Source: Terriglobia bacterium (GTDB lineage: Bacteria > Acidobacteriota > Terriglobia > JAIQFV01). Taken from it: a stretch of DNA of 58,174 nt. Below are positions 17,303 to 42,896 of the stretch, piece by piece. Under the pieces are notes generated by a model. That model ran no database searches, had not been told where the DNA came from, and worked only from the letters and a program-made list of their open reading frames with translations. The translations under genes were made by a program, and so were the position numbers. Location of the stretch: NCBI GenBank assembly GCA_020072965.1, contig JAIQFY010000030.1, forward strand, positions 1 to 58,174. Reading direction: 5' to 3'. How positions within the stretch are numbered: the stretch's first letter is position 1; every line of letters starts with the position of its first letter.

Positions 17303-19609
17303 TCACTTCGCGCTTCCTAACACGCTCAGTCTTCGACGGGCGGCTGCGGACGCGGGTTCTACGTCGACTGAATCCACGATGCAATCTTCGCAGTTGGACT
17401 GGGCTGCTTTTTCATAGGTGGCTTTGGATTTTTCCTTCATCCCCAGTGCCTCCTCACCTCGGCCTGTCAAATAAAGGGCTGTGGCGTCGGTGATCCGGCC
17501 GGCGAGGGTGCCGGGAAATCTCCCCGAAGCAATTTTGGAGAGCACGTTCAATGCTTCGGCAAAACGGTCGCCCCGCATCAGCGCCACGGCGAGATTGAGG
17601 CGGATCAAGTTTTCGAGCGGCGGTGGCTTCGTGCCATCCAGGGCGTCCCGGAGGCGCGCGATGAATTGCTCAAAAAAGGCATTGCTCGCGGCCGGCGACA
17701 GTGGCCACACCACGGGCTCATTGGTTGAGGCCAGGACGGCGGCCTTCTGACCTCCATCCGCGCCCCGAATCTCCATGGAGAATCGGGTTCCTGGAGGCGC
17801 TTGCGCAGTCGCCAGCTGAAGCTGGTTCGTTTCCATCTTCGTCCCATTCACGGACAGAATAATGTCTCCTACCCTTATTCCGGCCTGCTCAGCGGGTGAT
17901 GCCGGCCACACCCGAACCACCACCAGTGGAGCAGTCGGAAGGTTTGTATCGATAGTCCTCAGCCCGAGGTCCGGCTGGAACAACGCCTCTTCGACATGGG
18001 ATGGCTCATTCAGCTGCTTGAGCGAGGCCACCATTTCGTCGCTTGAGGCGCTTCGCAGCCGCACAACATCCAGGCGGCTCGATTCGATGGAGAGCAACAC
18101 CCAAGTCGTCTGATCCTCGCCCTCCGGGAAGCCGAGGAGCAGCAAAGAGGCTCCAAAGTTTCGCGCCATCTGTTGAAGGGCCCCTGGAATCGGTTGCGGG
18201 GCCTGTCCCGTAGGCTCAATCCCATGAAACGCATCTCGCAGTGTCTCCTCAGTCAGACTGAGACGCTGCAGTTCGCGGTCGCGTTCCGGCAGCTTCACGG
18301 GGATTACAAAGAAGCGATCCAGAGTCGCCTTGAGGCGATCACCGGCTTCCGCAAGATGAGTGACGGAGATATTGCCCGTCTGCGCGCGGTCAACGACCAC
18401 AACGGCCAGGGTCGGTTTCAACCGCGCTTCAATGGAGAGCGTCCCGTCCCGGACAATTTCAACAGGGGCCTCATACCCTTCATCGGCCGTTCGAACCACC
18501 AGCACGTGTTTGCCGGCGCATACCGTCTGCTTCAAAGGGGTCGGTCCCAAGCTCTTTCCGCCGAGGAGGACCGAGGCGGGCGAGGGCATGGACGTCATCG
18601 CCAGAGTTCCCTGATTTGCGCGGAGGCTGATGAATGATAGGGTGGGGTCGATCCACAGCGGGGTCTGCTCGTTCAGCTTTCGCAGCGATTCGACCGGAAT
18701 TTCGAATCGGCGGGTCTCCGGGAGGAAACATTCCTTCTTGAAAATGATTTCGCGTGATGTGCTGACATCGAAATTGGGAATCGCGACGGCAGACATGCGG
18801 GCGGGGTCCCAACCGGAAAGCATTGCCTGTTGCTGTGCAAATTGGCCAAGCGGCGGCGCCAGGGACTGCACGACCTCGCGAAGGGGGCGCGAAGTATCGA
18901 GACGTTTGTCGCCGCCCCAGGTTTCTACCGAGGGCTGGTCAAAGAAAAGTACCAGGGGGATCCTTAGCCGGAGGAGCTGGATGTCGGTCCAGGAGAGGAT
19001 CTGTTTGGCGGCGAGGTCAAATTCGCGGCGCTCGGGCGCAAAATCCAGCTTCTCGATCAAAACAACGTAATGTCCAGGAAAGAGCCTCCACCGCTGTGCG
19101 ATCGGCTGGAGGACGCCCTTCTCCTGTTGATTGACAGAAATCCGCGCTCCCTGAGGCTGCCCTTGGACCTCGATGGCCCCCATTTCATTTTGCCGGATGT
19201 CCTCCAGGGTCTGATTCTCTCGCGGGGTCAACGTCTCCGCGGCAAAATTGGGGTTGAGCCGCAGCAATTTTCGAAAATCATCGGCGGCAGCCTCGTTTTT
19301 CAAAACGCGCAAATTTCCGCGTGCCTCCAGCAGCAACGCCTCTTCGTACACCTTCCGCTCTTCAACGGAAAGGGGCTGTTGGGCAGCAATGGTTTCATCC
19401 AACTGCTTGATCAAGGCCGCCACCTGCTCCATGGCGCCCTTGAAGTTGGAATCAAAATCCGATTTGGCCTGATCAAGGGCCTTCTGCAGGGAGGTGATAT
19501 CGGGGCGTGTTGACGGAGCGGCAGGGGTTTGCGTGGCTCCGCTGAAGGCCGGAGTCGCGAACAGCGCCATCGCCAGGATTATCGAGGTCCATTGAAGCGG
19601 TTGAAGCAT
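17303..19609 (-). CDS. Secreted PEGA/PDZ-domain protein
   Basis: A protein of 768 residues. A signal peptide (1-24) is followed by a short helical region (40-75) and TPR-like helices (85-125). Two PEGA-like beta segments are at about 145-200 and 335-395 (GARISVNQQEKG; ASVLLGGKSLGPTPLKQTVCAGKH). A PDZ domain is at about 560-625 (SPAEQAGIRVGDIILSVNG). More TPR-like helices lie near the C-terminus. No protease triad is seen, so PDZ and PEGA probably serve binding at the cell envelope. The start lies six bases after the previous stop codon, so the two are likely translationally coupled. It is the last gene of the long minus-strand run that begins with the Tad pilus genes. Confidence 0.75.
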   Translation of the reverse strand: MLQPLQWTSIILAMALFATPAFSGATQTPAAPSTRPDITSLQKALDQAKSDFDSNFKGAMEQVAALIKQLDETIAAQQPLSVEERKVYEEALLLEARGNLRVLKNEAAADDFRKLLRLNPNFAAETLTPRENQTLEDIRQNEMGAIEVQGQPQGARISVNQQEKGVLQPIAQRWRLFPGHYVVLIEKLDFAPERREFDLAAKQILSWTDIQLLRLRIPLVLFFDQPSVETWGGDKRLDTSRPLREVVQSLAPPLGQFAQQQAMLSGWDPARMSAVAIPNFDVSTSREIIFKKECFLPETRRFEIPVESLRKLNEQTPLWIDPTLSFISLRANQGTLAMTSMPSPASVLLGGKSLGPTPLKQTVCAGKHVLVVRTADEGYEAPVEIVRDGTLSIEARLKPTLAVVVVDRAQTGNISVTHLAEAGDRLKATLDRFFVIPVKLPERDRELQRLSLTEETLRDAFHGIEPTGQAPQPIPGALQQMARNFGASLLLLGFPEGEDQTTWVLLSIESSRLDVVRLRSASSDEMVASLKQLNEPSHVEEALFQPDLGLRTIDTNLPTAPLVVVRVWPASPAEQAGIRVGDIILSVNGTKMETNQLQLATAQAPPGTRFSMEIRGADGGQKAAVLASTNEPVVWPLSPAASNAFFEQFIARLRDALDGTKPPPLENLIRLNLAVALMRGDRFAEALNVLSKIASGRFPGTLAGRITDATALYLTGRGEEALGMKEKSKATYEKAAQSNCEDCIVDSVDVEPASAAARRRLSVLGSAK

Positions 19610-19615
19610 GGCAGT

Positions 19616-20824
19616 TCAGAAGATTTTGAGGATCCGGGCGCTCTTATGCGCCACCAGGAACATCTCGCCCGTTCCCGAGACTGCAAAGGTGCGGACGGAT
19701 CTGAATTCGGGGCTTGGGTTCAGCTGGCCCCAGGCAACCCGGGTAAGAGGTACAAACTCAATTTTCTGGTCTGCGCCGGCTCGAATTGCAAAAACAGCAA
19801 TAGCCCGGTCTTCTCCGTCCAGCAGGAACAGCTGGTTGAAGGGATCGATGTAGAAGTCAGTAATCGTGGACAACCGGAGATTGCCCGAGTCCGGGGAAAT
19901 CAGGCCACGCGTCTCGCCAGAGGGGCTGATTACCAGGATTCGGCTCTGCTTCGAGTCCAGAAGGTACACGTTTCCATAAAAATCAAATTCAATGGCACGC
20001 ACATTCTTAGGAACCAGGGAAGTCGCCGTGGTCTCGCCCGTCCTTCGTTCAAGCGAGTATCGCAGGGCTCCCGAAAGATCCGATGCCGTGGCCCATAAGT
20101 CACCGGACGCGGAGAGTCCCAGGGCCGTGATGTTCTTCAGGCTGCCTTCCGATTTTTTCTGGGGATTGGGAAGATTGAAGGATTGGGGTTTTCCCAGTTC
20201 GCGGATTAATTCGCCATCGGCAACAACCGTTTCTCCAGTGATTCCAATTCCCGTCCGAGCCATCGCCTGGGGAGAGTTGAATGGGATAGTTTCGATGAGA
20301 TCTCCATTCAGGCTGAAGCGAAAAACTCGCTTGCGATGTTTATCGAAAACGACCAGCTGCCCGGAAGAATTCACGAGGGCGGACCGGGGATCCTCAAAAA
20401 CTTCGGGCAACCCGGTCGTCAGAGGTTTTGCAAGAAAGGGAGCAGGATCCGGCGCTCCGGAGGGAAGGGTGCCGATTCGAGTGCGTTCCCACCGGTAATA
20501 GGTGCTCATCTGCTGAAGCGCCACGGCGGCCTCCGGACTTGAGGCGAAAAGCGCTCGGACTTGCTGATACTCCATGAGGGCTTGCTCCGGTCTTCCTGTG
20601 CAGGCCACGATATGGGCCAGGTGAAGCTGGGCCGCCGGCGCCTTGGGACTGCGGGGCCATCGCTTGATGAGCTCACGATAACCCTCAATCGCGTGACTGA
20701 ACTGCCGGGCCGCTTCCGCGGCGCGGGCTGCTTCGAACATTTTTGCCGAATCATCCCGTGGCGCGTCCGCGAAGACGTGATAGGAGACAAGGACCCCTTC
20801 ACACAAAAGCACAAGAAGGAGCAA
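19616..20824 (-). CDS. TPR plus beta-propeller (NHL-like) exported protein
   Basis: A protein of 402 residues from a TTG start. Residues 1-20 are hydrophobic. Two or three TPR-like helical pairs follow (about 25-105). The remainder shows repeated blades of a six-bladed propeller (SSGQLVVFDKHRKRVFRF; FDFYGNVYLLDSKQSRILV; DPFNQLFLLDGEDRAIAVF). The start is uncertain. The frame stays open about 50 codons further upstream without ATG or GTG, and encodes a basic stretch (KRQRRRY) that would complete a membrane anchor. An unusual start codon there is possible. It is coupled to the PEGA/PDZ gene and probably acts in the periplasm as a binding scaffold. Confidence 0.65.
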   Translation of the reverse strand: MLLLVLLCEGVLVSYHVFADAPRDDSAKMFEAARAAEAARQFSHAIEGYRELIKRWPRSPKAPAAQLHLAHIVACTGRPEQALMEYQQVRALFASSPEAAVALQQMSTYYRWERTRIGTLPSGAPDPAPFLAKPLTTGLPEVFEDPRSALVNSSGQLVVFDKHRKRVFRFSLNGDLIETIPFNSPQAMARTGIGITGETVVADGELIRELGKPQSFNLPNPQKKSEGSLKNITALGLSASGDLWATASDLSGALRYSLERRTGETTATSLVPKNVRAIEFDFYGNVYLLDSKQSRILVISPSGETRGLISPDSGNLRLSTITDFYIDPFNQLFLLDGEDRAIAVFAIRAGADQKIEFVPLTRVAWGQLNPSPEFRSVRTFAVSGTGEMFLVAHKSARILKIF

Positions 20825-20974: not shown

Positions 20975-23086
20975 TTAATTCAGGGATTGGACCTGGACTT
21001 CCTCGGCCTGTGGATTTCCACGAATCAATAAAATTGAGCGAGCCTTCACATTAATCGACTTGGTGATCTTGACCCCCTCGTACGTCCCGCCCGACCAGTT
21101 GAATACGACCCGATGATTTCCCGCTGCGATCTTCGGAATCTGCGCGGGGTAGGGTGGGGACAATACCACGTCGTCGATGGCTATGGAGCAATTCTGGTAA
21201 GCGTTGTTCGACACCTCGACCGTTGCACTTGCCAGCTCGGGCGCCGCGATCTCGAAATTCTGATTGGCAGCGAAATCACTCTTTTCTATCGTCAGGTTCA
21301 AAAAGATGGCGCGATTGACCATGCGAAGTGCATGCGACCCTTCGGCCAGCTTGAAATTACGCTGGGTCGGAGAGATATGGGCGAGGCGAGTGCGCCCGTC
21401 ATACAGATCAAACTCGTAAGCCCCTCCCGCGAATTTGAATATCAATGTGGCAAGGGTCGGGGCAGATCCGGGGGGCGTAGGGGAAGCCTGCTCGCCTTGA
21501 CCCTTCGGTGGTTCCGGAGGTTCCGGCGCCCCAGGCTTTCGCAGCCCCGCAGGTCTCGTCGCCGCACTATCCGACGGCGGGGCTTCGACTGAGGGGGGTG
21601 TTGTTCTGAAGAAGCGGGGGAGCGTCGAGTAAACGACCGCAACCAAGACTCCGAGGGGAACCAGCACGATCAGCCACCATCCTTTTGATCGCGTCTTCCT
21701 CAGTTTAGAGGGAGCGGGATGGACCTCATCTCGTTCCACTTCAGCAGGGATTCTTTTCAGGGGGGCTTCAATCACGGGTCCCCCCTCAGAAGTGGGGGAA
21801 ACTACGGTCAAGCCCAATTCCTGCGCCTTGGATAGCTCCGGTGCCGGTTCAACGCGTGTCTCGGCAGCAGCCATAGAGGCGATCAAGGTCTCGGGGGGCG
21901 TGGGATTCTCGCGATAAAGGATTCCTTTCTCGATGAGCCCGAGAATGAGTCGACCAGTCTCACAACGATCCATCCCGACGTTCTCGATGACCCGAAGAAT
22001 CGAAGTGCGCCCATCGATGAGAGGGAGGAGCTTCGACTCCCGGGGTTCAAGGCTTGCCAATCTCTCCTCGGGAACGATCTGCACCCGCAGAACGGCATCC
22101 AGGGGAGCAAGGTGCGAGGAAATCGTGTGCCATTCATCCTTTCCCCCGGGGCTCGACATCCGGGGCATGGATACCGGAGTCGCCACAGCCGCTCGGTGCA
22201 CGGAGATGGTCGCTCCACCGAAGAGGCCCGCTCGCAGCTGGTTTAAAGTCTGCGACAATTCCGCCGCGGTTTGAAATCGCTCCGTGGGGTTCTTTCTTAA
22301 AAGCCGGTCGACGACCTGAGAAAGAGGAGCGGGAACGTCGGGACGTATGTCGGTCACCGCACGGTGTTGTTCATAGACATGCTTGAACCCGATGGTGTAA
22401 GCGTTTTCTCCGGTAAATGGCAACTCTCCGGTGAGGAGTTCGTACAGGATAATCCCGAGGGAGTAAAGATCACTGCGGGCATCTGCATTTTCTCCGCGGA
22501 CCTGTTCGGGGCTCATGTAGGCCGGCGTCCCCATCGTGACCCCGGCCACTGTCAGCTTGGTAGTATTTTCAAGCATCCGGGCAATGCCGAAATCCATGAC
22601 AATAACCGTCCCGAATTCATCGATCATGATGTTGGAGGGTTTGATGTCCCGGTGGATGATTCCCAGCCGATGCGAATAATCGAGGGCGCGGGCAATCTGA
22701 AACACAATTTCGACCGAGTCAGCGAGGCTGAGAGGTTTCTCGCGGGAGAGGCGTGAGCGCAGGTCCTCGCCGGAGACGTATCGCATCACAAAGTAGGTCA
22801 GATCTTCGGCCTCGCCGAAGTCGTAAACGGGGATGATATTCGGGTGTGACAGTTTTGCCGATGCCTCGGCCTCCCGCTTGAAACGGGCCACCATCTCATG
22901 GTCGCGCGCGAACGATTCCAGCAACACCTTGACCGCCACGCGGCTGCGCAGGACGCGGTGCACCCCCAGGTACACGTCGGCCATTCCTCCCGTGCCAATC
23001 TTTTGTGTGATTTCGTATTTGCTCTCCAGGGCATGCTTGAGTCTTCCAAGCCGAGGATCATCCGGGGGAGTCGTGTTGGAGGTCAT
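20975..23086 (-). CDS. Transmembrane serine/threonine protein kinase (PknB-like)
   Basis: A 703-residue eukaryotic-type kinase. The kinase domain (about 24-285) has the glycine loop GTGGMADVYLG, the catalytic lysine in AVKVL (Lys53), HRDIKPSN at 145, DFG at 165 and MSPEQ at 191. All catalytic residues are present. Residues about 325-395 look like a small winged-helix segment. A single membrane helix follows at about 469-487, then a proline-rich stretch and an extracytoplasmic beta domain with PEGA-like features. It should phosphorylate threonines that FHA domains recognise; four FHA domains occur in three proteins encoded just upstream in the same run. That link is inferred from gene order. 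No partner phosphatase is in the window. Confidence 0.92.
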   Translation of the reverse strand: MTSNTTPPDDPRLGRLKHALESKYEITQKIGTGGMADVYLGVHRVLRSRVAVKVLLESFARDHEMVARFKREAEASAKLSHPNIIPVYDFGEAEDLTYFVMRYVSGEDLRSRLSREKPLSLADSVEIVFQIARALDYSHRLGIIHRDIKPSNIMIDEFGTVIVMDFGIARMLENTTKLTVAGVTMGTPAYMSPEQVRGENADARSDLYSLGIILYELLTGELPFTGENAYTIGFKHVYEQHRAVTDIRPDVPAPLSQVVDRLLRKNPTERFQTAAELSQTLNQLRAGLFGGATISVHRAAVATPVSMPRMSSPGGKDEWHTISSHLAPLDAVLRVQIVPEERLASLEPRESKLLPLIDGRTSILRVIENVGMDRCETGRLILGLIEKGILYRENPTPPETLIASMAAAETRVEPAPELSKAQELGLTVVSPTSEGGPVIEAPLKRIPAEVERDEVHPAPSKLRKTRSKGWWLIVLVPLGVLVAVVYSTLPRFFRTTPPSVEAPPSDSAATRPAGLRKPGAPEPPEPPKGQGEQASPTPPGSAPTLATLIFKFAGGAYEFDLYDGRTRLAHISPTQRNFKLAEGSHALRMVNRAIFLNLTIEKSDFAANQNFEIAAPELASATVEVSNNAYQNCSIAIDDVVLSPPYPAQIPKIAAGNHRVVFNWSGGTYEGVKITKSINVKARSILLIRGNPQAEEVQVQSLN

Positions 23087-23528: not shown

Positions 23529-25208
23529 TTACCGGGGATGAAGCTGGAGCCAAATCTGCACTTGTTCGGCCTTGTCTTCATCTTTCGTGTGTTCAAGAAA
23601 TTTGCGGAAATAGACGGCCGCCTGGGCATTGTCCTTTTTCTCATCCGCATAGATTGCGCCGAGATTGTAGTAAGGCTGGGGCAAAGCCGGATTGGCTTGA
23701 ATGATGGCCTGGTACTGTTGGATAGCCTCGTCGATGCGTTTGGTTTGTTGTTGCAGAACGGCGAGCCTAAACCGTGCTGAGACCATTTTGGGATTCAGGG
23801 AGACGGCTTTTTGAAAGCTCGCTATGGCCTCGTCGTTCTGGCCGGCCTGAACCAGGAGCTGTCCCCGCTCAAAATAAGCTTCAGTAAAATCCGGGCTCAG
23901 ATTGATGATCTTGCCGAAACTTTCCAAGGCTTCCGCCTGCCGCTGGAGTTTCACCAGCGCCAACCCCTGTAAATACAGGGCTCCGATGAGGGTCGGATTC
24001 AGCCCCAATGCCGCCTGGGAGTCGGTCAAAAGCTGTTCCGGATTGTCGAGATGCGTGACGGCGATAATCAGATGAGTTTCAGCGTCGGCCGGGTTGATCT
24101 GGTCCGCTCTCTTCAAGGCCCGGTCCGAATCCTTTCCCCTGCCGTTTATGTAATAAGCCAGCCCCAGCGCGCGCTGAACAGGGACAGAATCGCGGTTCAA
24201 TTTCGCAGCCTTTTCAGCGAGGTCCAGCGCGGCCTGTGCCTCCCCACTTTCCGTCAGCAAAGCATGGACTCTCGACAACACCACGCGCCAACCCAGTGCT
24301 TCTGCTTGCCCCGCGAATGATGGAGCAAAGGTATGGTCAGCACTGATGGCTTTCTGAAAGAGCTGCACCGCTCGTCCCGCGCCGGCAAATGAGAACTTCA
24401 AATATTCTGCCCGCGCCTGTTGATAGAGGGATCCCACGCTCTCTCCCGGTGGTGGAACAGAGGTTGTCGGGGGGGGCGTGACCGCGGGAGCAATGGGGCG
24501 CGGAATCGAGGGAGTGGACTGTGGTCTAGCGGCCCCGGCCGTCACAGGAGGGGCGGCGGCAGCGACCACGGGCATGCGAGTAGGCGTGGTGGGGGCCGAA
24601 GCGAGCGTGTCGAAAAAATAGAAATTCTCCATCATCCAGGAAAGCACCGGCTCCACGGCGGCGGAAGACGACTTTAACGCGCTGGTGCGCAAACGGAACA
24701 GATCTTTTCCATGGATGATGACGATTTCCCGGGCACCTTGCGGCCCGACTTCCGAGGTGTACTCGTACTGGATCTCAACCGCCTTGGTCTTGTGAAAGGT
24801 GACGAAGTCAGCAGAGCGGATCTGTGCGGAAGGGAAGTCCTTCTTGAGCACGTCGTTCTCTACGTCGATGAAATCGTGCCCCATTTCGTCGAGGTTGAGG
24901 GGGAAATCAAGCGCCGTATGGAGAACCACGAAGCTGCTGCCCGCCCGATTGGTAACCTGGGCCAGCACGTGGGCCGAAGCGGCTGAGACATCCCATCCCC
25001 GCGCGGGATACCAAAAGCGGAAATGGAACTCCGTCCCTGTGAACGGGAGATAGGCCGGGGCGGCCGGAGGCGGAGATGTCCTCCCCTTTTTCTGGGGTTC
25101 CGCTCCGCTCCCGAGCAGGAGCGAGGCTGTGCATGCCCAGACCAAAAGAACAGCAAAGGACAGCACCTTATGACCAAGAGAATAGGGAACAGCCTGTTTG
25201 CGGCTCAT
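23529..25208 (-). CDS. Secreted tetratricopeptide repeat protein
   Basis: A protein of 559 residues. A membrane or signal segment (about 14-34) is followed by a globular domain (50-210) of unknown type and a proline/alanine-rich linker (about 215-260). At least eight TPR units then run to the C-terminus, for example NPADAETHLIIAVTHLDNPE and SPDFTEAYFERGQLLVQAGQ. TPR arrays assemble protein complexes; pilotins and assembly factors of secretion systems often have them. The start overlaps the stop of the upstream ATPase gene by four bases (ATGA), so the pair is co-translated. This favours a role with that ATPase. Confidence 0.8.
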   Translation of the reverse strand: MSRKQAVPYSLGHKVLSFAVLLVWACTASLLLGSGAEPQKKGRTSPPPAAPAYLPFTGTEFHFRFWYPARGWDVSAASAHVLAQVTNRAGSSFVVLHTALDFPLNLDEMGHDFIDVENDVLKKDFPSAQIRSADFVTFHKTKAVEIQYEYTSEVGPQGAREIVIIHGKDLFRLRTSALKSSSAAVEPVLSWMMENFYFFDTLASAPTTPTRMPVVAAAAPPVTAGAARPQSTPSIPRPIAPAVTPPPTTSVPPPGESVGSLYQQARAEYLKFSFAGAGRAVQLFQKAISADHTFAPSFAGQAEALGWRVVLSRVHALLTESGEAQAALDLAEKAAKLNRDSVPVQRALGLAYYINGRGKDSDRALKRADQINPADAETHLIIAVTHLDNPEQLLTDSQAALGLNPTLIGALYLQGLALVKLQRQAEALESFGKIINLSPDFTEAYFERGQLLVQAGQNDEAIASFQKAVSLNPKMVSARFRLAVLQQQTKRIDEAIQQYQAIIQANPALPQPYYNLGAIYADEKKDNAQAAVYFRKFLEHTKDEDKAEQVQIWLQLHPR

Positions 25209-34904: not shown

Positions 34905-37082
34905 CTAGGCGGTCTGGATCAAGAAAATTTCTCTCGGGATGATAATTCCGCGCTGCTGCAACTTCTCGACAAATCTGGGAACGATTCCCGTGGGCACGAA
35001 CTGCCCCAGCACTTTTCCCTCAGGGGACATCCCGGTTTGCTTGAAAATAAAAATATCGGACATCGTAAAAACATTTCCTTCCTGTCCTGTCACCTCGGAA
35101 ATATGGGTGATTTTCCGGCTGCCGTCCGCAAGGCGCGACTCCTGCACGATAATCTGGATGGCCGAAGCGATTTGATCGCGGATGGCTTTGGAAGGCAGAT
35201 CCAGCCCCGCCATCAGGCTCATCGTCTCCAGCCGGGACAAGGCGTCGCGCGGCGTATTCGCGTGGACGGTGGTGAGCGAACCGTCATGACCCGTGTTCAT
35301 CGCCTGAAGCATGTCCAACGCCTCACCTCCGCGGCATTCGCCCACCACGATGCGGTCCGGCCGCATGCGCAAACAGTTCCGCACCAGGTCGCGGATCGTA
35401 ATCGCTCCTTCCCCCTCGATGTTTGCCGGCCGCGATTCCAGGCGCACCACGTGGTCCTGGGGCAACTGCAGTTCCGCCGAGTCCTCCACGGTCACGATGC
35501 GCTCATCCGCGGGAATAAAGGAAGAAAGGATGTTGAGCAAGGTCGTTTTACCAGAGCCCGTGCCGCCCGAGATGACCACGTTCTGGCGTGCCCGGACCGC
35601 CGCCGCCAACAGCTGGGACATTTGATTTGTCAGGGTGTTGTAATGAACGAGGTCTTCCACCTTCAGGCGCTTCTTGGGGAACTTGCGGATTGTCAGGCAC
35701 GGTCCGCCGAGGGCGAGGGGGGGAATGATGGCATTGACGCGCGATCCATCGGACAAGCGGGCATCCACCATGGGGGACTTCTCATCGATGCGTCGACCCA
35801 GCGGCGCCACGATGCGCTCGATCACTCCGCGCAACTGCTCGTTGGTCAAAAATCGTCCCTTGCTCAGCTCGATCTTCCCGCGCCGTTCGACGTAGATCTG
35901 ATCGATGCGATTGACCATGATTTCGGTAATGTCGGCGTCCGCCAGCATATCTTCGAGAGGACCCAGTCCGAGGGCTTCGTCGATGACCTCCTTCACCAAC
36001 AGCTTGCGCTGCTCGCGGGAGGCAGACAATCCTCTCAACTCTTCATCCAGCAACGCGACAATCTTCATTTCAGCACGTTGCCGGACCTCCTGGACTTTGG
36101 TCGGATCCTGGCTCACGAGATCAGACTTCACAATCTTCAGCTCGTCCACCAACCGCTTGTGGATGCGCAGCTTCAGGTCGAGGAACTTCTCTTCGATGGA
36201 ACGCTCCCCACTGATCGGAACCACCACCGCCCCGCCGGCAGCGGCAGGCACTGGGCCTGCGGAAGCGTGAAATTCCGGGGCGGGCGCTCCCCGTTGTTGC
36301 CGCGCCATGGCCCCCAGGCGGCGAAAATCCGTCCTTAATTGCTGGTGAAGCATCTGGCTGGTGGCGTCAATAGCGCGTGTAATCGGATGCCGTGCATCCA
36401 TCAACACGAGCGGGGTGGCCATCGACATGGACAACGAAATCGCATCCCCATCCTCAGGGATCTGCACGCTGAGTGGAAGGTTTAAACTGCGTTCCATGAC
36501 CTCGGGGCTCACCAGGGTCTTTGTCGTCACTCGGTTCGCAACGATACGAAAGATTTCACGGGCAAAGTGCAGGGACTGGAGATACTCCAGCTTGCGTCTT
36601 GCCCGCGTCACCGAAAGCATGTCCGGGGTAACCAGCAGGGCGATGACGTCGGAGTTGTCGAAAATTTCGATGTTGGTGGAATCCAGATCCGTGGTAGTGT
36701 CCACCACCACATAGTTATATCCCCCGCGGACCAGGCTCATAATGCGGTTGATATGACCTTCGTTGATGAGCCTGCTCTGGAAGGATTCGTTAATCGCCAC
36801 CAGGACATCAATGCCCGAGGAGTGGTGCGTGAAGTAGCCTTTTACCAGGGCAGGCTGCAACCGGCCCAACAGAGGGATAAGGTCGGCGATGGCCTTGGCC
36901 TTGTCGAGGCCGAGCAATTGTGCGGCATCGCCGGGCAGGGGAAGCCCCATGTCGAGCAGCAAGACCTTTCCCTTGCTCTCCCGCATCAGGCTGATGGCAA
37001 GATTGACGGCGAACAGCGTCTTGCCGCAGGCCCCCTTGCCCGAATGGACTGTGACGATATGTCCTGTCGTTTCCGAACTCAA
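34905..37082 (-). CDS. cpaF: CpaE-CpaF fusion: MinD-like domain plus Tad assembly ATPase
   Basis: A fused protein of about 725 residues. The N-terminal part (about 1-250) is a ParA/MinD-type ATPase as in CpaE, with the deviant Walker A KGACGKT at 16-22 and VVVDTTTDLDS near 125. The C-terminal part (about 290-725) is CpaF/TadA: DITEIMVNRIDQIYVERRG, Walker A GGTGSGKT at 506-513, Walker B RIVVGECRGGE at 577-587 and LTTVHANTPRDAL. The frame extends to 37364, but that part overlaps cpaC by almost 200 bases and contains low-quality basic sequence. I chose the TTG at 37082, which has GGAGGCAGGAAG just upstream and starts right before the ATPase fold. Another TTG at 37139 is possible. Confidence 0.85.
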   Translation of the reverse strand: MSSETTGHIVTVHSGKGACGKTLFAVNLAISLMRESKGKVLLLDMGLPLPGDAAQLLGLDKAKAIADLIPLLGRLQPALVKGYFTHHSSGIDVLVAINESFQSRLINEGHINRIMSLVRGGYNYVVVDTTTDLDSTNIEIFDNSDVIALLVTPDMLSVTRARRKLEYLQSLHFAREIFRIVANRVTTKTLVSPEVMERSLNLPLSVQIPEDGDAISLSMSMATPLVLMDARHPITRAIDATSQMLHQQLRTDFRRLGAMARQQRGAPAPEFHASAGPVPAAAGGAVVVPISGERSIEEKFLDLKLRIHKRLVDELKIVKSDLVSQDPTKVQEVRQRAEMKIVALLDEELRGLSASREQRKLLVKEVIDEALGLGPLEDMLADADITEIMVNRIDQIYVERRGKIELSKGRFLTNEQLRGVIERIVAPLGRRIDEKSPMVDARLSDGSRVNAIIPPLALGGPCLTIRKFPKKRLKVEDLVHYNTLTNQMSQLLAAAVRARQNVVISGGTGSGKTTLLNILSSFIPADERIVTVEDSAELQLPQDHVVRLESRPANIEGEGAITIRDLVRNCLRMRPDRIVVGECRGGEALDMLQAMNTGHDGSLTTVHANTPRDALSRLETMSLMAGLDLPSKAIRDQIASAIQIIVQESRLADGSRKITHISEVTGQEGNVFTMSDIFIFKQTGMSPEGKVLGQFVPTGIVPRFVEKLQQRGIIIPREIFLIQTA

Positions 37083-37170
37083 AAGCTTCCTGCCTCCACG
37101 GTGTGACTTGGGAGTCGGCCGGGATGCGTCAAACGGCAATTCACGGGCCGAGTGCGCTCCTGTGCTTCCC

Positions 37171-38526
37171 CTACTTTTTCTTAGGCGGTTTCTTGTCCTT
37201 CCCCTTGGTCTGGCTGGTATCGGGAGTGCCCATTTCCTTGTCGGTGGCTGTGAGTTCTTTGTACTGGTCAAAATTCTTCTGAGTTTCACCGGCGACGTTT
37301 TGACCCGCTTCAGCAGCGCTCCTGACGAGGTGAGGCGTCGCGAACATAACCAGGTCCGTTTCATTTTTTCGGAACTGCTGTGACTTGAAAAGGTTTCCGA
37401 GAGCCGGAAGGTTGCCTAACGCAGGGATCTTGTCCACCAGGAGGCTGTCCTCATTTTGGACCAGGCCGCCCAGGACGATTGTTTCGCCTTCATGGACGAA
37501 GAGCTTGGTGTCCACCTGGTTCTTGACAATGCCCGGAGGGCTGTCGGCGGTTCCCTGGCCGCTCAAGCGGCTCGCCTCGATGGATATGGCCATGGAGATA
37601 TTGTTGAGTTGATCGACCTGCGGTTGAAAATCCAGCTTCAGCCCGAATTCTTTATACTGAACGGAGAACTGTCCCAGGCCCTGGGCCACGCGGATGGGAA
37701 TTTCTCCGCCGACAAAGAGATGGCCCTTTTCACCACTGCGCGTGATCAGGGTCGGATTAGAGAGAAGGCGACCCTTGCCGGTGGAGGTGATGGCGTTCAA
37801 CTGGGGCAGGTTCAATGTACCGGTAATCGGGCTGAGGGCGGGCGCCCCTTTTGACGAGAACGTCATGGGATTCAGCTGAATCGGGGTGCCGGACCATTGG
37901 ACGCCCAGGTTCCGCAGGTAGCTGCGGTCCACTTCCATGATCTTGACATCCAACTGCACGGTGCGAATGGAGGAGGCCTGCTGCTCGTCCATCAGGCGCT
38001 GGGTCTCCTTTGACATTTTCACCAGGTTCAGGACGTCCTTGCGGCCGGCGACGACCTTGTTGATGCGGTCCATATCGTCCTGGGTCAACACTTCGCCATC
38101 AATCACCACTTGCGACCCTACGGCCCGGAACTTGATGCCTTCGATGCTTCCGATAATCTGCTGGAGTTCCTGCATCGTTTGCCGCACATTGGTCGGATTC
38201 ACATAGATCTGGATTTCGTCGCGCAACGCTCCCTGCTGATCCCAGAGCATCAACTTGGTAATACCCACCTGGCGGCCAATGAACAGGACGACGGTACGGT
38301 CCTTGATGATCTCAATCTGGGCGATCTTCGGGTCTCCGATGGAAATGTTTCCAATCCTGTAATTCATGGTGACCGTCTTCTGGTCGCCCACGAACAGCGT
38401 CTGGTCTTCGGCCCAGGCCGTTCCCATCCCGGAAAACATGATCACCACACCCAGCATGAAGATACCCATGCGCAGGGCGCGGCGCCGACTGTTCTTCGTT
38501 GCTTGTTTTTTCACGATGCCACCCAC
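37171..38526 (-). CDS. cpaC: Tad pilus secretin CpaC/RcpA
   Basis: The outer-membrane secretin of the Tad system, 451 residues. A signal peptide (about 20-39, ending TAWA) is followed by the pilus-type N-domain (GDQKTVTMNYRIGNISIGDPKIAQI) and a BON-like segment (IEGIKFRAVGSQVVIDGEV). The secretin core (about 195-400) carries LLSNPTLITRSGEKGHLFVGGEIPI and the terminal motif IPALGNLPALGNLFKS. The end is lysine-rich (KPPKKK). It forms the channel through which the Flp pilus passes. Confidence 0.93.
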   Translation of the reverse strand: MGGIVKKQATKNSRRRALRMGIFMLGVVIMFSGMGTAWAEDQTLFVGDQKTVTMNYRIGNISIGDPKIAQIEIIKDRTVVLFIGRQVGITKLMLWDQQGALRDEIQIYVNPTNVRQTMQELQQIIGSIEGIKFRAVGSQVVIDGEVLTQDDMDRINKVVAGRKDVLNLVKMSKETQRLMDEQQASSIRTVQLDVKIMEVDRSYLRNLGVQWSGTPIQLNPMTFSSKGAPALSPITGTLNLPQLNAITSTGKGRLLSNPTLITRSGEKGHLFVGGEIPIRVAQGLGQFSVQYKEFGLKLDFQPQVDQLNNISMAISIEASRLSGQGTADSPPGIVKNQVDTKLFVHEGETIVLGGLVQNEDSLLVDKIPALGNLPALGNLFKSQQFRKNETDLVMFATPHLVRSAAEAGQNVAGETQKNFDQYKELTATDKEMGTPDTSQTKGKDKKPPKKK

Positions 38527-38603
38527 CTTTCTTCCAGTAAACGTGCGGGGAAACCTGTCAACTAAACCCGCTCAACCTCGCCAGAGAGCGGTTCACTCAA
38601 AGA

Positions 38604-39479
38604 TCATTGGCCGCGGATTTCGCGCCAGGAGGGCCCATGCCGTGGAACGACCGGCATGTCCACTTTCAAGACTGTAAATGCAGTCGAGTTCTTCAACTCC
38701 ACGACGGTGTCCTTTTCGCGGAACGACCGCAACACCAGCGTCAGGTCGCCTGCGTTTTGCGCGAAGATGATGTCCTGAGCATTTTCCGGGGTCATGGCCA
38801 CCGTCACGGTCATGAACCTCGGAGGAGCTTCCGGCCGTGCTGGGACGCCGGTTTGGCCATATTGCTCCAATCGCTGCTTCGCCTTTTCGCGCTGGTCCTG
38901 ATTCAGGGTGATGGTCTCCCCGGTGTCCTGACCCGTTGCCAGTACAAGGACATTCTGAAAGAGCGTCAGGGCCTGCGACTGCTGGTTGGGGGCCACAGAA
39001 ACAGGGGTCACCTGGGCGTTCGCCGGAAATGAGCCGAACTTGAACAGGCCCACGATATCGACGTAATTACCAGGCTGCACCAAGTTGGCCACGCCGCTGA
39101 CATCGTTGACCGCGATGGTGACCGCACGCTTACCGACAGGGACTTTGAACGCCAGGCCGGTGCCCCTTTCGTAGGACAGGAGCTCGGTACCCAGGACCTG
39201 TGAGTTCTTCATGATCGGGACCCTGGAGATATTTCCAATGACGGCCTTGAGATCAGAGACGGCGGCCTTCTGGACCCATTTCTGCGGGATCTGGGCGAGC
39301 TTGACCTGATTCTCTTCGATGGGCACGCTCGGAAGGATATCATCCGTGGCGATGATCACATCCTTGGGATTGGAGCTTTCCAGCAGCGCGGTTTCCCTTG
39401 TGTTCAGGTAGACATACACAAGGATCATGGCAACAATCGCCAGCAGCAACGACATTAGTATGCGTGGTTTAAGTTTCAT
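38604..39479 (-). CDS. cpaB: Tad pilus periplasmic protein CpaB/RcpC
   Basis: A protein of 291 residues. One N-terminal membrane helix (about 7-25) is followed by an SAF-like beta-clip (VIIATDDILPSVPIEENQVKLAQIP) and the RcpC/CpaB core (VPVGKRAVTIAVNDVSGVANLVQPGNYVDIVG). CpaB sits in the periplasm and assists the secretin. It lies 77 bases upstream of cpaC, in the usual order cpaB-cpaC-cpaE/F-tadB-tadC. Confidence 0.93.
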   Translation of the reverse strand: MKLKPRILMSLLLAIVAMILVYVYLNTRETALLESSNPKDVIIATDDILPSVPIEENQVKLAQIPQKWVQKAAVSDLKAVIGNISRVPIMKNSQVLGTELLSYERGTGLAFKVPVGKRAVTIAVNDVSGVANLVQPGNYVDIVGLFKFGSFPANAQVTPVSVAPNQQSQALTLFQNVLVLATGQDTGETITLNQDQREKAKQRLEQYGQTGVPARPEAPPRFMTVTVAMTPENAQDIIFAQNAGDLTLVLRSFREKDTVVELKNSTAFTVLKVDMPVVPRHGPSWREIRGQ

Positions 39480-39592: not shown

Positions 39593-40264
39593 TCAGTTTC
39601 CGCAATTGGGCGTCAGACCATACACCGGGAGTCCGTGCTCATCTGTCCCTGAAGTATGCGGGAAGGCAGGTTCCTGATGTGGATGGTCGTTAATCCATTG
39701 CTGTTGCATCTCTCCCACAGTGTGGCTATTCCCATCTCCGTCGGTCATGGTAGCGCCGCATCCTTTTTGGGGAGGCGCCTGCTGATTGCCTAAAGATACA
39801 TCCGGACTCGTCCCGACGATATCCCAGGGGAGACCCTTGGTTCCCGCAGCAATCCAGTAAACCCGCGCCACCTGCGTGGGAACTCCCAGCATGCTGCCCT
39901 GGAAAAATGGAATAATGGGGAATGATTGTTGGCTGGAGCCCCCACCGCCGCCCCCCCCTCCACCTCCACCGCTGGCCTTGGCCAGGGTGAGCGGCGAGCT
40001 GTACTGGGCGATTTCATTGTCGCTGTTGTTCTTGTCACGCGCGTTCTTGAAGGCGTCGTAGTAAGCGTTGGCGGTCATCTGAAAGAGCGTGTTGTGGATC
40101 AGGAAGGTCTGGTAGATGCCCGCGATGAGCATGAACATCAGGAACATGACGAACAGGGTTTCCATGGTGGCCTGACCACCGCTTGCTGTCATGAGCCCTC
40201 GGCGGGGGCCATGTGTCCCTTCGAACTTTTTCTGGGTAGGGGAAGTGTCCTTAACGAGATCCAT
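39593..40264 (-). CDS. TadE-like pseudopilin with polyglycine run
   Basis: A protein of 223 residues. A 30-residue leader ending SGG precedes QATMET and a hydrophobic helix (about 31-55), the TadE/pseudopilin layout. The ectodomain has a run of 11 glycines encoded by C-rich DNA, including a C8 homopolymer at 39951-39958, then a region with no recognised fold. It is likely anchored in the inner membrane and cut by a prepilin peptidase not encoded in this window. Confidence 0.75.
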   Translation of the reverse strand: MDLVKDTSPTQKKFEGTHGPRRGLMTASGGQATMETLFVMFLMFMLIAGIYQTFLIHNTLFQMTANAYYDAFKNARDKNNSDNEIAQYSSPLTLAKASGGGGGGGGGGGSSQQSFPIIPFFQGSMLGVPTQVARVYWIAAGTKGLPWDIVGTSPDVSLGNQQAPPQKGCGATMTDGDGNSHTVGEMQQQWINDHPHQEPAFPHTSGTDEHGLPVYGLTPNCGN

Positions 40265-40327
40265 TTAAACCGCCATCGCTCCAGTGATTCGATTGGGCCG
40301 GCATTCTCACCGGGCTAGTACAAGGGC

Positions 40328-41308
40328 TCAGTGCTTAATGTTACTTATCTCTGATTCAATGGTCTGAAAACTCGACAACGAGACGCCGTTTTGAGCCGCC
40401 TGGATTACCAGTTGCGCGTCCAACCACAGCTTAGTCATCTGGGTCTGGGTGTATCCGCTATAATCACCGTCGTCCAGATATCCTTTCAGCGGCAGCATCC
40501 TCACCTGGAACTTTCCGCCCTCGTCACTGTTATCGGGATCGATGGAGCCGTTGGTGGGCTTGGCCATGGCTACAGCGGTCATGGCCGGTATCTTAAAAAC
40601 GCTTGGCAAGACCACGCCATCGGTTGGGTCGGCCTTCACCCACCACAGGAAATTGACTTTCTTATGGCCGTCCTTGGCGATGTTCCACACCTCGCTCAGA
40701 TCCAGTTGATGAACATTGACGCCGATCCAATAGATCCCCACGTAGGTGGTGTTCTCGCCTTCCATCTTCGAGACCTTGTCGACCTCAATCAAGTCACCCG
40801 GAATTCCGAAGAGAGGGTAAGACAATGAGACCCCCCTCAAGAGTTGATCGCCGTTTTTCTTGGTGACCTCCCTCGCCTCTTCGACCGCCTGAACATTTCC
40901 GGTCAGATTCAAAGCTTTGAAAAATGGTTTGTAAATACCGTTTCCCACCTTCCACAGGGGGTCGGCAATGTCGGCCAGGTAATCCAGAGTCACCGTAAAG
41001 CTTACTGTCAGAATCTGGGTGGGGGTGAACACAAACCATTTTTCGGCCCAGTTGGTTTCGTACAGCGAATTGAGTACCTGGGCCTGGCGCGTGGCCCCCG
41101 TCCATGCCCCGGAATCGGCGATCATTTGCAGGATGGTCCGCCGGTTGATGGCTTGGCCGAGGTTCACGATAAAAGCCAGGAATAGGAACAGCGTCCAGAA
41201 GGCGGCGATAAAAAAGAGGGTTGTTTGCCCGCGCTCGGAACGCAAGCGCATGGCCGGGGATCGGAGGGAGGAGGGCGCAGGCAGGGCGGCGATCGAACGA
41301 TCGGTCAT
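40328..41308 (-). CDS. TadG-like pilus-associated protein
   Basis: A protein of 326 residues. A leader of about 27 residues ends SERG, followed by QTTLFF and a membrane helix. The next segment (FIVNLGQAINRRTILQMIADSGAWTGA) is typical of TadE/TadG proteins. The remainder is extracytoplasmic. Unlike its neighbours it lacks the glutamate at position +5, as is common for TadG. Its start overlaps the stop of the previous gene by four bases. Confidence 0.78.
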   Translation of the reverse strand: MTDRSIAALPAPSSLRSPAMRLRSERGQTTLFFIAAFWTLFLFLAFIVNLGQAINRRTILQMIADSGAWTGATRQAQVLNSLYETNWAEKWFVFTPTQILTVSFTVTLDYLADIADPLWKVGNGIYKPFFKALNLTGNVQAVEEAREVTKKNGDQLLRGVSLSYPLFGIPGDLIEVDKVSKMEGENTTYVGIYWIGVNVHQLDLSEVWNIAKDGHKKVNFLWWVKADPTDGVVLPSVFKIPAMTAVAMAKPTNGSIDPDNSDEGGKFQVRMLPLKGYLDDGDYSGYTQTQMTKLWLDAQLVIQAAQNGVSLSSFQTIESEISNIKH

Positions 41309-41952
41309 TTATTGTCCCCCTTTTCGTCGTTCTTTTTTATATTCTCCTGGATCATGGGCGCGCGGCCAATCGTCTTGACGGCTGAGGAACTGGTCCCGGC
41401 CAGGAAGGTCGGGATTCCCAGGGTGGTTTGATAGCTCACTTCAATGCAGGCGCTTTCGCCGCTCCCGCCTCCTCCACCGCCTCCACCCCCACCGCTTCCG
41501 ACACCGTGGCAGGAAGCCTTGTTGACATCGATGCCTGAGCCGCCGGAGCCCCAATTCATCGCCCCCAACACATCTTTGGCCGCGTCTTTGGCCTTGTCCA
41601 TGTCATCGTTGTTATCAATGTTCACTGACCAGGCCCGCGCTGCGGCGAAGGCGGCATAATTCGTCAGCAGCTTCGTACCGGCGATCATGGTAATGATCAC
41701 CAGCGACCAGATCAAAAAGAAGAAGATCAGGAAGTTGATCAAGAACTCCAGCAGGACTTGACCTTCTTCCGCTCTCCGCTTCCGACATGGAGTCTTTTGA
41801 ACCAGGGGTTTTGATGGGCCAGGCATTTTGATCCACCGGGTCGGGGGCCAGGAGGCCCTGTTTACCCGCGCATACAGCCCCCCGCAAAAGGGCAGTCGCG
41901 CCAGACCCACGGCGTTCCGTGCCTTTCTGCCGGTCGAAATATGAACTGTCAC
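41305..41952 (-). CDS. TadE-like pseudopilin with polyglycine run
   Basis: A protein of 215 residues from a GTG start. An internal ATG at 41826 (MPGPSKPLV), with GGTGGA before it, is a good alternative. RRAEEG then QVLLEF is the prepilin-like cleavage pattern, followed by a long hydrophobic helix and LLTNYAAFAAARAWSV, the TadE segment. An ectodomain with a run of nine glycines follows. It overlaps the TadG-like gene by ATGA. Confidence 0.75.
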   Translation of the reverse strand: MTVHISTGRKARNAVGLARLPFCGGLYARVNRASWPPTRWIKMPGPSKPLVQKTPCRKRRAEEGQVLLEFLINFLIFFFLIWSLVIITMIAGTKLLTNYAAFAAARAWSVNIDNNDDMDKAKDAAKDVLGAMNWGSGGSGIDVNKASCHGVGSGGGGGGGGGGSGESACIEVSYQTTLGIPTFLAGTSSSAVKTIGRAPMIQENIKKNDEKGDNK

Positions 41953-42027
41953 GCTCCTCCCTCAAATCAAGGGAGGCGCTTGAGGGTGTCCCGAGTTTGC
42001 GCCCTCATACTACTCCAGGAGGAACAC

Positions 42028-42285
42028 TTAGAAGCTGCTAGACGCATTCGTGATGGCATTAATAATGTTCCCGACCAGGTTGCTCACCAGGTTCTTGAAT
42101 CTCGGAGAGAGGAACATTGCAATGGCGATCAACAAGCTCACCATAATCAGGACAATCACGAGGTATTCCAAAGTGGTTTGGCCGCGCTGCTCCCGAGCTT
42201 TCCGTCGCAGATTGGCTCCCCAGAAGATGGCCTTCGAAGACCACTCCACCACTGCGTCGTTCAAACGCGATAGCTTGCCAAACAT
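42028..42285 (-). CDS. flp: Flp-type IVb pilin with long leader
   Basis: A protein of 85 residues. The leader of 35 residues ends EQRG, followed by QTTLEY and a 23-residue hydrophobic helix, then a short polar tail ending in ASSSF. Glutamate at +5 and tyrosine at +6 match Flp major pilins. It is one of a group of three small pilin genes that open the tad run. Confidence 0.88.
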   Translation of the reverse strand: MFGKLSRLNDAVVEWSSKAIFWGANLRRKAREQRGQTTLEYLVIVLIMVSLLIAIAMFLSPRFKNLVSNLVGNIINAITNASSSF

Positions 42286-42504
42286 ACTGTCCTCCTTATG
42301 CGGATTGGATTTACCTCACAGATAGGCGAAACGTACCCGTCTTGGGTTTCAAGGGCTCTGAAATAAACTTGAATACACGCGCAAATGCGTTGCGTGAAGG
42401 ATCCGGGATTGAGTGGGCCTCTTATTCGCAAGCAAGTAGTGAATCATTCCGGCCGGCATCGCTTGGTCCGCCAATCCCTATCCGGCTCCGTGATTCCCTC
42501 ATCC

Positions 42505-42678
42505 CTAACTTGTATAGGGCGAAATGAGCTTCTGGATCAAGGCTCTCATGAAGTGGGACCACCGGGGGGCTACAAAGCCAATCACAGCGATGGCTATCCC
42601 CCCGACCAGCAGGACCAGTGTCAAATACTCAAACAGCGATTGCCCCCTGGCATCCAGGAGTTTACGGACTCGTTTCAT
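42505..42678 (-). CDS. flp: Very short Flp-type pilin
   Basis: An open frame of 57 residues: MKRVRKLLDARG, then QSLFEY, then a hydrophobic helix (LTLVLLVGGIAIAVIGFV) and a short tail ending PYTS. The expected cleavage after Gly12, Glu at +5 and Tyr at +6 make this a clear Flp pilin despite its size. It lies 32 bases after the previous pilin gene. Size and composition fit a major Flp pilin (mature length about 45 residues). Confidence 0.85.
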   Translation of the reverse strand: MKRVRKLLDARGQSLFEYLTLVLLVGGIAIAVIGFVAPRWSHFMRALIQKLISPYTS

Positions 42679-42710
42679 GGGAGCCTGTTAACATTAGCCT
42701 CTGAAGTTTT

Positions 42711-42896
42711 TCACGGAGCCATCCTGGCCACGTGGAGACTCACGCTCTTAAACCCCTTGACCAGCGCCCCCCCGAACTTCATGAAAACGAAAATGATCAC
42801 CACGAATAACCCGAGTAACAGGACATACTCAAAAATGGCTTGTCCCTGGGACCTCAATCCCTTTCGGAGTCGAAATGGCTGCCGGTCGTGAGTCAT
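42711..42896 (-). CDS. flp: Flp-type IVb pilin, first gene of the tad run
   Basis: A protein of 61 residues from the ATG at 42896. The frame is open further upstream to 43037, but that part crosses the promoter region and overlaps the stop of the neighbouring gene. The leader (MTHDRQPFRLRKGLRSQG) is followed by QAIFEY and a hydrophobic helix, then a basic tail. Two TTGACA boxes lie 70-95 bases upstream of the start. Confidence 0.88.
   Translation of the reverse strand: MTHDRQPFRLRKGLRSQGQAIFEYVLLLGLFVVIIFVFMKFGGALVKGFKSVSLHVARMAP

Follow-up and report, generated by a model that had tools for sequence, protein, structure and literature searches.

A Tad pilus locus of Terriglobia that continues into conserved FHA genes and a PilB-type ATPase

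Gene content of the locus

The window we investigated is a stretch of 58,174 nucleotides (GenBank assembly GCA_020072965.1, contig JAIQFY010000030.1, positions 1 to 58,174) from the 5.9 Mb genome of a Terriglobia bacterium of the phylum Acidobacteriota. Its minus strand carries, from position 42896 down to 17303, a locus for a Tad (type IVc) pilus. The Tad genes run on into genes for a DUF192 protein, three membrane proteins with FHA domains (FHA1, FHA2 and FHA3), a second ATPase of the PilB type and a TPR protein (42896-23529); a gap and a trio of further genes, beginning with a kinase, follow. Comparison with other genomes strongly supports regarding the FHA genes, here called the FHA cassette, as a conserved part of this Tad machine. 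A preliminary description of this DNA had named these genes, and the open reading frames (ORFs), Pfam matches and motifs bear it out. Reading from 42896 down, the features are:

42711..42896, minus: Flp-like pilin frame, GQAIFEY motif; probable start at 42896 (the listed ORF is 42711-43037)
42505..42678, minus: Flp-like pilin of 57 aa, GQSLFEY motif
42028..42285, minus: Flp-like pilin of 85 aa, GQTTLEY motif; Class_IIIsignal E 7e-4, below the cut-off
41305..41952, minus: TadE-like minor pilin candidate; one hydrophobic stretch, no Pfam match, probable label
40328..41308, minus: TadG-like protein (PF13400, E 6e-7)
39593..40264, minus: TadE/F-like minor pilin candidate; one hydrophobic stretch, no Pfam match, probable label
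38604..39479, minus: RcpC/CpaB (PF16976, E 4e-24)
37171..38526, minus: RcpA/CpaC secretin (PF00263, E 9e-40)
34905..37364, minus: TadZ-TadA fusion ATPase (Pfam domains); true start probably downstream of the RcpA stop
33999..34868, minus: TadB (T2SSF, E 8e-20)
33752..34009, minus: fourth Flp-like pilin frame, between tadB and tadC, GQAVMEY motif
32804..33712, minus: TadC (T2SSF, E 6e-17)
32440..32817, minus: DUF192 protein (PF02643, E 2e-15)
30332..32461, minus: FHA1; FHA domain, linker with Thr motifs, transmembrane helix (TM), extracytoplasmic PAS-like domain, TM, HAMP-like helix, PAS-like domain
29152..30273, minus: FHA2; FHA domain, TM, TPR-like part
27077..28927, minus: FHA3; two FHA domains, TM, TPRs; counterpart of Bd0474
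25205..27016, minus: PilB/GspE-type ATPase with MshEN match, of a clade of its own
23529..25208, minus: TPR protein; N-terminal hydrophobic stretch and recurring N-terminal domain
20975..23086, minus, after the gap: transmembrane Ser/Thr kinase, optional neighbour (PF00069, E 8e-58)
19616..20824, minus: TPR and propeller-like protein of the kinase trio; TPR by Pfam, propeller a label of the preliminary description with no Pfam match
17303..19609, minus: PEGA/PDZ protein of the kinase trio (Pfam)

The overlaps of stops and starts said to tie together tadC, the DUF192 gene and the first FHA gene are present (14 bp and 22 bp, respectively), and the PilB and TPR genes overlap by 4 bp. The continuity claimed for the whole locus is supported by these overlaps but softened by gaps of 224 bp between FHA2 and FHA3 and of 442 bp between the TPR and kinase genes. 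The latter gap measures 101 bp in a sister species of the same genus (G199; G and L numbers are our handles for genomes and loci), and about 335 bp of the window's gap are unmatched in the alignment, which suggests that these 335 bp are extra DNA. Inside this segment (23190-23524) we found only two overlapping palindromes. The three FHA proteins contain four FHA domains, as described before, and these are four of the seven FHA matches in the genome.

These Tad core proteins were matched with Pfam: the TadA-type ATPase, TadB, TadC, the RcpA secretin and RcpC. The pattern expected of Flp pilins (G-x4-E-Y plus a hydrophobic stretch) occurs in four frames, three at 42896-42028 and one between tadB and tadC. 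No prepilin peptidase (TadV) was matched in the locus, and the sole A24 match of the genome lies on another contig. The missing TadV is not decisive for the assignment, as a peptidase encoded elsewhere may serve this pilus. TadV is reported missing in Bdellovibrio, too (PMC5430801; this and the other papers are cited for parts of their text).

Fusions of the TadA ATPase

A domain scan revealed a feature absent from the preliminary description: TadZ is present as a fusion to TadA, with a CbiA domain (TadZ/ParA-like) at residues 104-309 and T2SSE at 465-741. The window's TadA thus carries a TadZ part and, according to Pfam, no FHA domain. The same fusion occurs in acidobacterial relatives and in Bdellovibrionota. 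A different fusion, of an FHA domain to TadA, was found in 69 of 116 loci, comprising those of our phylum sample and the best 80 of 262 loci on named contigs; most of the latter are proteobacterial, with an FHA-TadA fusion. TadA matches occur in 118 of 146 Myxococcota genomes at 1e-60, and in all 31 frames inspected (from the 30 best of these 118 genomes plus L290) FHA is fused to TadA, in agreement with the published KilF. The direct fusion of FHA to TadA in a related branch is a hint that FHA domains act on the motor. Two gammaproteobacterial FHA-TadA loci (L161, L194) have a kinase frame of 860-872 aa downstream of DUF192.

A tree of the TadA core was built from 60 rows, 23 of them chosen among the 69 with an FHA-TadA fusion. 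It splits into 24 classical rows and a group of 36 with every FHA-TadA and TadZ-TadA row of the tree (SH-aLRT 100). The fusion group also holds two unfused rows, L103 and L163, both of which start at contig ends. A second tree has 43 selected rows, now including Bdellovibrionota and Myxococcota. In it the FHA-TadA rows group together (90/84), as do 13 acidobacterial TadZ-TadA rows (93/84); the fusions from Bdellovibrionota, Schekmanbacteria and G120 are not placed. Unfused L293 falls beside the FHA-TadA group and unfused L294 at the root, both on very long branches.

Distribution of the FHA cassette

The whole FHA1 proved unsuitable as a query, as unrelated FHA domains dominated the result (168 of 199 genomes); we therefore used TadC and the part of FHA1 that follows the FHA domain. 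The latter matched 13 of 121 relatives at 1e-3, and besides the window itself only G199 was strong. TadC has relatives in 41 of the 199 genomes of our phylum sample. We examined regions from 35 of the 40 genomes besides the window's, plus G199 (G059, G062, G131, G152, G175 and some second copies were left out), and added the named collection, whose genome contigs were scanned with four TadCs and of which the best 80 of 262 loci were used.

In the phylum sample, tadC followed by FHA genes was found in nine family codes. Discrete FHA genes are present in ten of 11 acidobacterial cassette loci (three of them from the named collection) and in all nine with at least 2 kb after tadC; the exception, L137, lies on a contig that ends 265 bp after tadC. 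By contrast, in 26 classical Tad loci no same-strand FHA gene lies within 6 kb, and this also holds for the 22 that continue for 2 kb or more past tadC (Fisher p 5e-8); in L118 an FHA frame lies about 8 kb away on the opposite strand. TadA and TadZ are separate in the classical loci wherever both are visible, and no PilB or kinase match was found in these 26 stretches, four of which end within 0.7 kb after tadC. Since the two sorts of locus correspond to two clades, the FHA association reflects descent rather than independent events. DUF192 is not special to the cassette, as 15 of the 26 classical loci also have it no more than 1.5 kb from tadC.

The cassette varies. The DUF192 gene lies elsewhere or was not seen in some loci, and in G120 the genes are found on two contigs in a different order. 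G124 and G013, of the same phylum, combine an FHA-TadA fusion with DUF192, FHA and dual-FHA genes. The N-terminal part of the TPR protein recurs beside PilB in relatives. G200, from the window's own family, has no match resembling either ATPase of the locus. Outside the phylum, FHA1-type genes adjoin tadC in contigs titled Phycisphaerales (L134), Schekmanbacteria (L135) and Bdellovibrionales (L144).

For a held-out check we made a profile of the portion of FHA1 behind its FHA domain; it matches 66 of 396 genomes of the phylum at 1e-6, many over its later part only. Among ten further regions inspected, the four best new matches carry the cassette. Three of them (G351, G422, G311) have the order TadZ-TadA, TadB, TadC, FHA1, FHA2, FHA3, PilB, and G125 has a reduced cassette with short TadB, TadC and PilB frames. 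No such cassette was matched in the other six regions, one of which is only 3.4 kb long. The TadB, TadC and PilB frames of G125 (L277 and L363) measure 197, 114 and 245 aa, and FHA frames of 620, 314 and 464 aa remain; no TadA match was found in about 35 kb. This copy is possibly decaying.

The counterpart in Bdellovibrionota

The FHA1 profile (six rows, one of which, L144, is itself from Bdellovibrionota) matches 139 of 144 Bdellovibrionota genomes at 1e-8, the weakest matches covering it partly. In all 20 regions chosen from this phylum, as in the window, TadC, DUF192, FHA1, FHA2 and a dual-FHA protein follow in this order on one strand. The homology of FHA1 extends outside the FHA domain (E 8e-54 in G716), and acidobacterial profiles of the parts behind the TM find the positional counterparts of FHA2 (E 5e-8) and FHA3 (E 6e-12) in L344; the FHA2 profile also picks up numerous proteins with two FHA domains, in most cases with a weaker match than for the FHA2 of that locus. 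Both Bdellovibrionota genomes examined for the TadZ-TadA fusion, G493 and G716, have it; in G716 it is a frame of 753 residues near 100 kb, beside TadB, RcpA and RcpC. No PilB-type ATPase and no kinase was matched in the 20 regions.

The dual-FHA frame of G716 (674 residues from its first Met) agrees with the published layout of Bd0474, described with cytoplasmic FHA domains at 2-100 and 134-241 and an extracytoplasmic TPR part at 363-673, and encoded in one operon with Bd0470-Bd0473 and Bd0475 (PMC12034629). In this operon Bd0472 corresponds by position to FHA1, Bd0473 to FHA2 and Bd0474 to FHA3. A transposon mutant in Bd0470 (TadC) is reported not to attach to, kill or round prey, and one in Bd0474 attaches without killing or rounding prey (PMC6561027). 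As these are insertions in a host-independent background, polarity is possible.

The machine of Bdellovibrio bacteriovorus (Bd0470-Bd0475 and the hit-locus genes Bd0110-Bd0113) thus shares with the window the gene order, homologous non-FHA parts and the TadZ-TadA fusion. It differs in being split into two loci, in the lack of a PilB-type ATPase or kinase match and in an FHA1 linker without the Thr motif discussed below. The gene order and the homology of the parts argue strongly that the two machines belong to the same Tad subtype. A function of the window's machine resembling prey attack could be suggested by analogy with Bdellovibrio.

The FHA proteins and the threonine motif

The four FHA domains of the window keep the G-R, S-x-x-H and S-x-N residues in the alignment, which we take to be the phosphothreonine pocket. 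All three FHA proteins also match Yop-YscD_cpl in Pfam. In an AlphaFold2 model of FHA1 residues 288-709 (mean pLDDT 70, pTM 0.39), a long helix that includes TM1 is followed by a five-stranded domain; another long helix, one more helix and an alpha/beta domain at the C terminus come after it. Foldseek ranks a model of the WalK sensor kinase first, and VIA-align on the Foldseek matches finds the extracellular PAS domains of CitA and WalK with Z 13-14 and rmsd 2.1-2.8 over 112-126 residues. Pfam matched neither HAMP nor the C-terminal PAS in FHA1; both labels come from the domain order and the fold. In this model FHA1 looks like the front end of a WalK/CitA-like sensor kinase, that is, a receptor, joined to an FHA domain and without a kinase.

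FHA domains show a pThr+3 preference, and the pattern [DE]xTxx[LIVMF], chosen after viewing the first set of linkers, fits this preference. Twelve FHA1 linkers of that set hold 14 matches versus 1.05 expected, a number reached in none of 5000 shuffles. FHA2 linkers have none (0.01 expected) and FHA3 linkers two (0.64 expected; 654 of 5000 shuffles as high), so that the enrichment is limited to FHA1. The linkers of the four held-out acidobacterial loci contain eight motifs versus 0.58 expected (none of 20000 shuffles as high), or five versus 0.35 if G125, a near relative of G422, is omitted. The HAMP-PAS linkers of the same proteins, taken as a control, contain one (0.46 expected). The longer sequence repeated in the window, EPKTV[FS][LM]DA[HQ]KLQE, was dropped as a universal motif, because only the looser pattern recurs, in nine of the 16 first and held-out linkers. 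The linker Thr motif is, judging from these sequences, a lineage feature and not a universal part.

The PilB-type ATPase

The second ATPase is of the PilB/GspE type with a match to MshEN in Pfam. Its score against TIGR02538, the PilB equivalog model, is 550.3 bits and thus below the cut-off of 675.65, and we call it PilB-type rather than PilB. The PilBs of seven cassette loci (window, G199, G054, G143, L136, G021 and G099) form one clade (100/100) that excludes the remaining PilB/GspE proteins encoded in the window's genome and in its kin. Those of G021 and G099 are the most divergent, sit on long branches, and their join is flagged as unsure. The Walker A and Walker B segments and both Cys pairs are kept in all nine cassette PilBs aligned. 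In the window and in eleven other acidobacterial loci that run on far enough, though not in G120, the last FHA gene is succeeded by a PilB frame; it is cut at contig ends in G005 and G099 and is short in G125. The PilB of L178 adjoins a T2SSF gene of its own and was not counted with the FHA block. G021 (L101, 15934-19776) encodes a HAMP histidine kinase of 1281 aa after the cassette PilB.

We dropped the idea that FHA3 and PilB always occur together, which L135, L107, L108 and L208 counter. Control by c-di-GMP through MshEN was considered and is not claimed: the motif that binds c-di-GMP is RLGxxL, whereas the first MshEN motif of the window's ATPase reads KLAELL. The ATPase would drive this pilus. 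Because Tad pili are described as machines with one bifunctional ATPase (PMC12019362), a second motor would be unusual.

The kinase trio

The preliminary description included the kinase, the propeller protein and the PEGA/PDZ protein in the locus. Relatives of the PEGA/PDZ protein occur in 43 of 199 genomes at 1e-8, including the window's. Twenty stretches around the better matches hold a relative of the propeller protein in 16 cases, a kinase in 15 and FHA genes in five, and no tad gene was matched in any of them, the G143 stretch ending about 0.25 kb before the rcpC of its FHA-Tad locus. The trio lies on the contig of the FHA-Tad locus, upstream of it, in G143, and beside FHA genes in G120. 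A kinase is found in five of 11 acidobacterial cassette loci (on the opposite strand in G143) versus none of the 26 classical loci (p 0.001), and in one, G125, of the four held-out loci. The window's kinase is one of about 28 in its genome (29 matches, of which two fall in the same frame). In a 27-row tree it joins its G199 counterpart alone and not the kinases beside other such loci. Since no tad gene was matched in the stretches around its relatives and the kinase is not sister to the other linked kinases, we treat the trio as optional. The conserved gene order that had been expected thus holds for the block of tadC and the FHA genes and fails for the trio, which is found elsewhere without a tad match. 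On this comparison, the FHA scaffold belongs to the pilus and the trio is an optional neighbour.

The three genes of the trio are found together in different families of the phylum (L225-L244), and the recurrent trio may be an envelope-sensing system of its own. In L238 (G011), a 625-aa FHA protein takes the kinase's usual place beside the propeller and PEGA/PDZ pair.

Discussion

The locus may be compared with three further known types of system. The threonine phosphorylation pathway of the type VI secretion system (T6SS), PpkA-PppA-Fha, likewise places a kinase and an FHA protein near a contact-dependent machine; it differs from the window, where neither a T6SS gene nor a PP2C-type phosphatase was found among the proteins scanned. 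The Kil system of Myxococcus xanthus is Tad-like and FHA-rich, as is the window; its authors already propose that contact sets off a signalling cascade, and they draw a link to Bdellovibrio (PMC8460266). In the Kil system, KilF carries an FHA domain, TadG is reported missing and there is one ATPase, whereas the window has TadZ instead of FHA on TadA, a TadG-like protein, and a second ATPase that follows. CpaF class III, which is FHA-fused, also couples FHA to the Tad motor (PMC12019362); the window differs in having FHA on separate membrane proteins and a TadZ-fused motor, which is not among the three classes set out there. Publications already describe Tad systems rich in FHA proteins, the FHA-CpaF class and the Bd0470-Bd0475 operon. 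We found no publication on a TadZ-TadA fusion, an acidobacterial FHA-Tad or a two-motor Tad in a search with few wordings and mostly of non-subscription journals. Nor did the same search turn up the cassette shared across phyla or the separate clade of PilB-type ATPases.

Starting from the composition and conservation of the locus, the fusion, the separate PilB clade, the predicted receptor fold, the kept FHA residues and the enrichment of the acidobacterial Thr motif, we propose a distinct Tad subtype with a TadZ-TadA fusion, an FHA1-3 cassette after TadC, a scaffold controlled by phosphothreonine and a second motor; for this proposal as a whole we estimate a probability of about 0.5. The locus would encode a retractable surface pilus with FHA readers and, possibly, a second motor in the same cluster. 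Through its PAS-like domain, FHA1 would perceive a cue on the outer side of the inner membrane, and the HAMP-like helix would pass it to the cytoplasmic PAS and FHA parts. FHA2 and FHA3 are predicted, beyond what hydrophobicity indicates, to have FHA in the cytoplasm and TPR in the periplasm, and would thereby connect the TadB/TadC platform, at its base, with the envelope. For the acidobacterial branch we further propose that Ser/Thr kinases phosphorylate the FHA1 linker threonines and that FHA domains bind them; this binding would assemble or release the scaffold and so decide whether the motor engages, the PilB-type ATPase being a second motor on the same TadB/TadC platform. The neighbouring kinase would be one exchangeable input and not part of the core. 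Phosphorylation, binding, the choice of motor and a pilus served by two motors are inferred; both phosphothreonine control and a second motor are plausible. Of the phosphothreonine relay that the preliminary description had placed on the Tad pilus, the conservation of FHA with the pilus, the pocket residues and the acidobacterial FHA1 linker motif speak in favour, and the kinase trio is not supported as a fixed part; the relay itself would be a plausible reading.

Several observations weigh against this proposal. The trees give no support for a single origin of the TadZ-TadA fusion, because the Bdellovibrionota, Schekmanbacteria and G120 fusions remain unplaced. FHA2 is missing in G005 and G021, and in several relatives FHA3 has one FHA domain rather than two. 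There is no PilB beside the FHA genes in L135, G120 and the 20 Bdellovibrionota regions, nor near the FHA-TadA loci with extra FHA genes (L107, L108 and L208). No kinase is constantly linked to the cassette, and the window proteins scanned include no phosphatase. The FHA1 model, with the pLDDT and pTM values given above, was built from six sequences only. The motif pattern was picked post hoc on the first set, is missing from six of its 12 FHA1 linkers and from one of the four held-out linkers, is enriched in FHA1 linkers alone, and occurs in none of 20 Bdellovibrionota FHA1 linkers (0.80 expected). Given its absence in Bdellovibrionota and in many linkers, a linker switch cannot be the universal mechanism.

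These points bear on other explanations. The FHA proteins could be a structural scaffold only, similar to the FHA-type cytoplasmic domain of SctD/YscD in type III secretion, forming an inner-membrane ring under the Tad platform that reads no phosphothreonine. The Yop-YscD_cpl matches of all three proteins, the lack of a constantly linked kinase and the Bdellovibrionota linkers without the motif are in line with this, as is a two-hybrid contact between Bd0075 and Bd0474 reported to run through the C-terminal extracytoplasmic TPR domains (PMC12034629). However, a structural role need not preserve the G-R, S-x-x-H and S-x-N residues, which all four window domains keep, and the motif is enriched in held-out acidobacterial linkers; we regard a purely structural role as rather unlikely. 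A separate secretion machine, served by the PilB-type ATPase and the FHA block and merely sharing the locus, appears very improbable. PilB-type ATPases normally pair with a PilC/GspF partner of their own, and the genome has other PilB/GspE genes, but no second T2SSF pair or pseudopilin set was found among the locus proteins scanned, and the FHA genes are succeeded by a PilB frame both in the window and in eleven more acidobacterial loci that continue far enough, with G120 as an exception.

That only part of the 25 kb is one system, and that the trio is an independent envelope-sensing cassette adjacent by chance here, seems somewhat probable to us. The PEGA/PDZ relatives in 43 of 199 genomes, their 20 stretches without a tad match in which the propeller and kinase relatives recur, the 442-bp gap with its extra DNA, and the position of the window's kinase in the tree all point this way. 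Against chance adjacency stand the kinase in five of 11 cassette loci versus none of the 26 classical loci (four of which are cut within 0.7 kb after tadC), the trio upstream on the FHA-Tad contig of G143, and the trio beside FHA genes in G120.

Going further, many Acidobacteriota might possess a Bdellovibrio-type contact-attack Tad machine with a second, PilB-type motor, in which FHA1-3 would be a transmembrane, phosphothreonine-gated receptor and scaffold that reads contact outside and chooses the motor; such a candidate device for contact killing or predation is a speculative extension, which we rather doubt. The Kil authors did not settle what FHA proteins do in predatory Tad systems (PMC8460266). 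Matching FHA genes stand beside tadC in Bdellovibrio, whose attack on prey requires tadC and one of these FHA genes (PMC6561027). The list of conserved parts is common to Bdellovibrio and acidobacterial genomes, and the Bdellovibrio operon is a testable counterpart of the cassette. The locus itself contributes FHA1 as a predicted receptor, specific threonine motifs open to mutation and a natural setting in which to test a second motor on a Tad platform.

Other genes of the window

Just upstream of the pilins (42998-46665) lie genes for two similar multi-pass membrane proteins of 543-544 aa with no Pfam match. Further upstream, 50091-53426 encodes a malic enzyme with an ACT domain, a Rex-like CoA-binding regulator and an adenosine deaminase. 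At the other end of the window (304-12555), three large proteins in a row carry CarboxypepD_reg and OMP beta-barrel domains.

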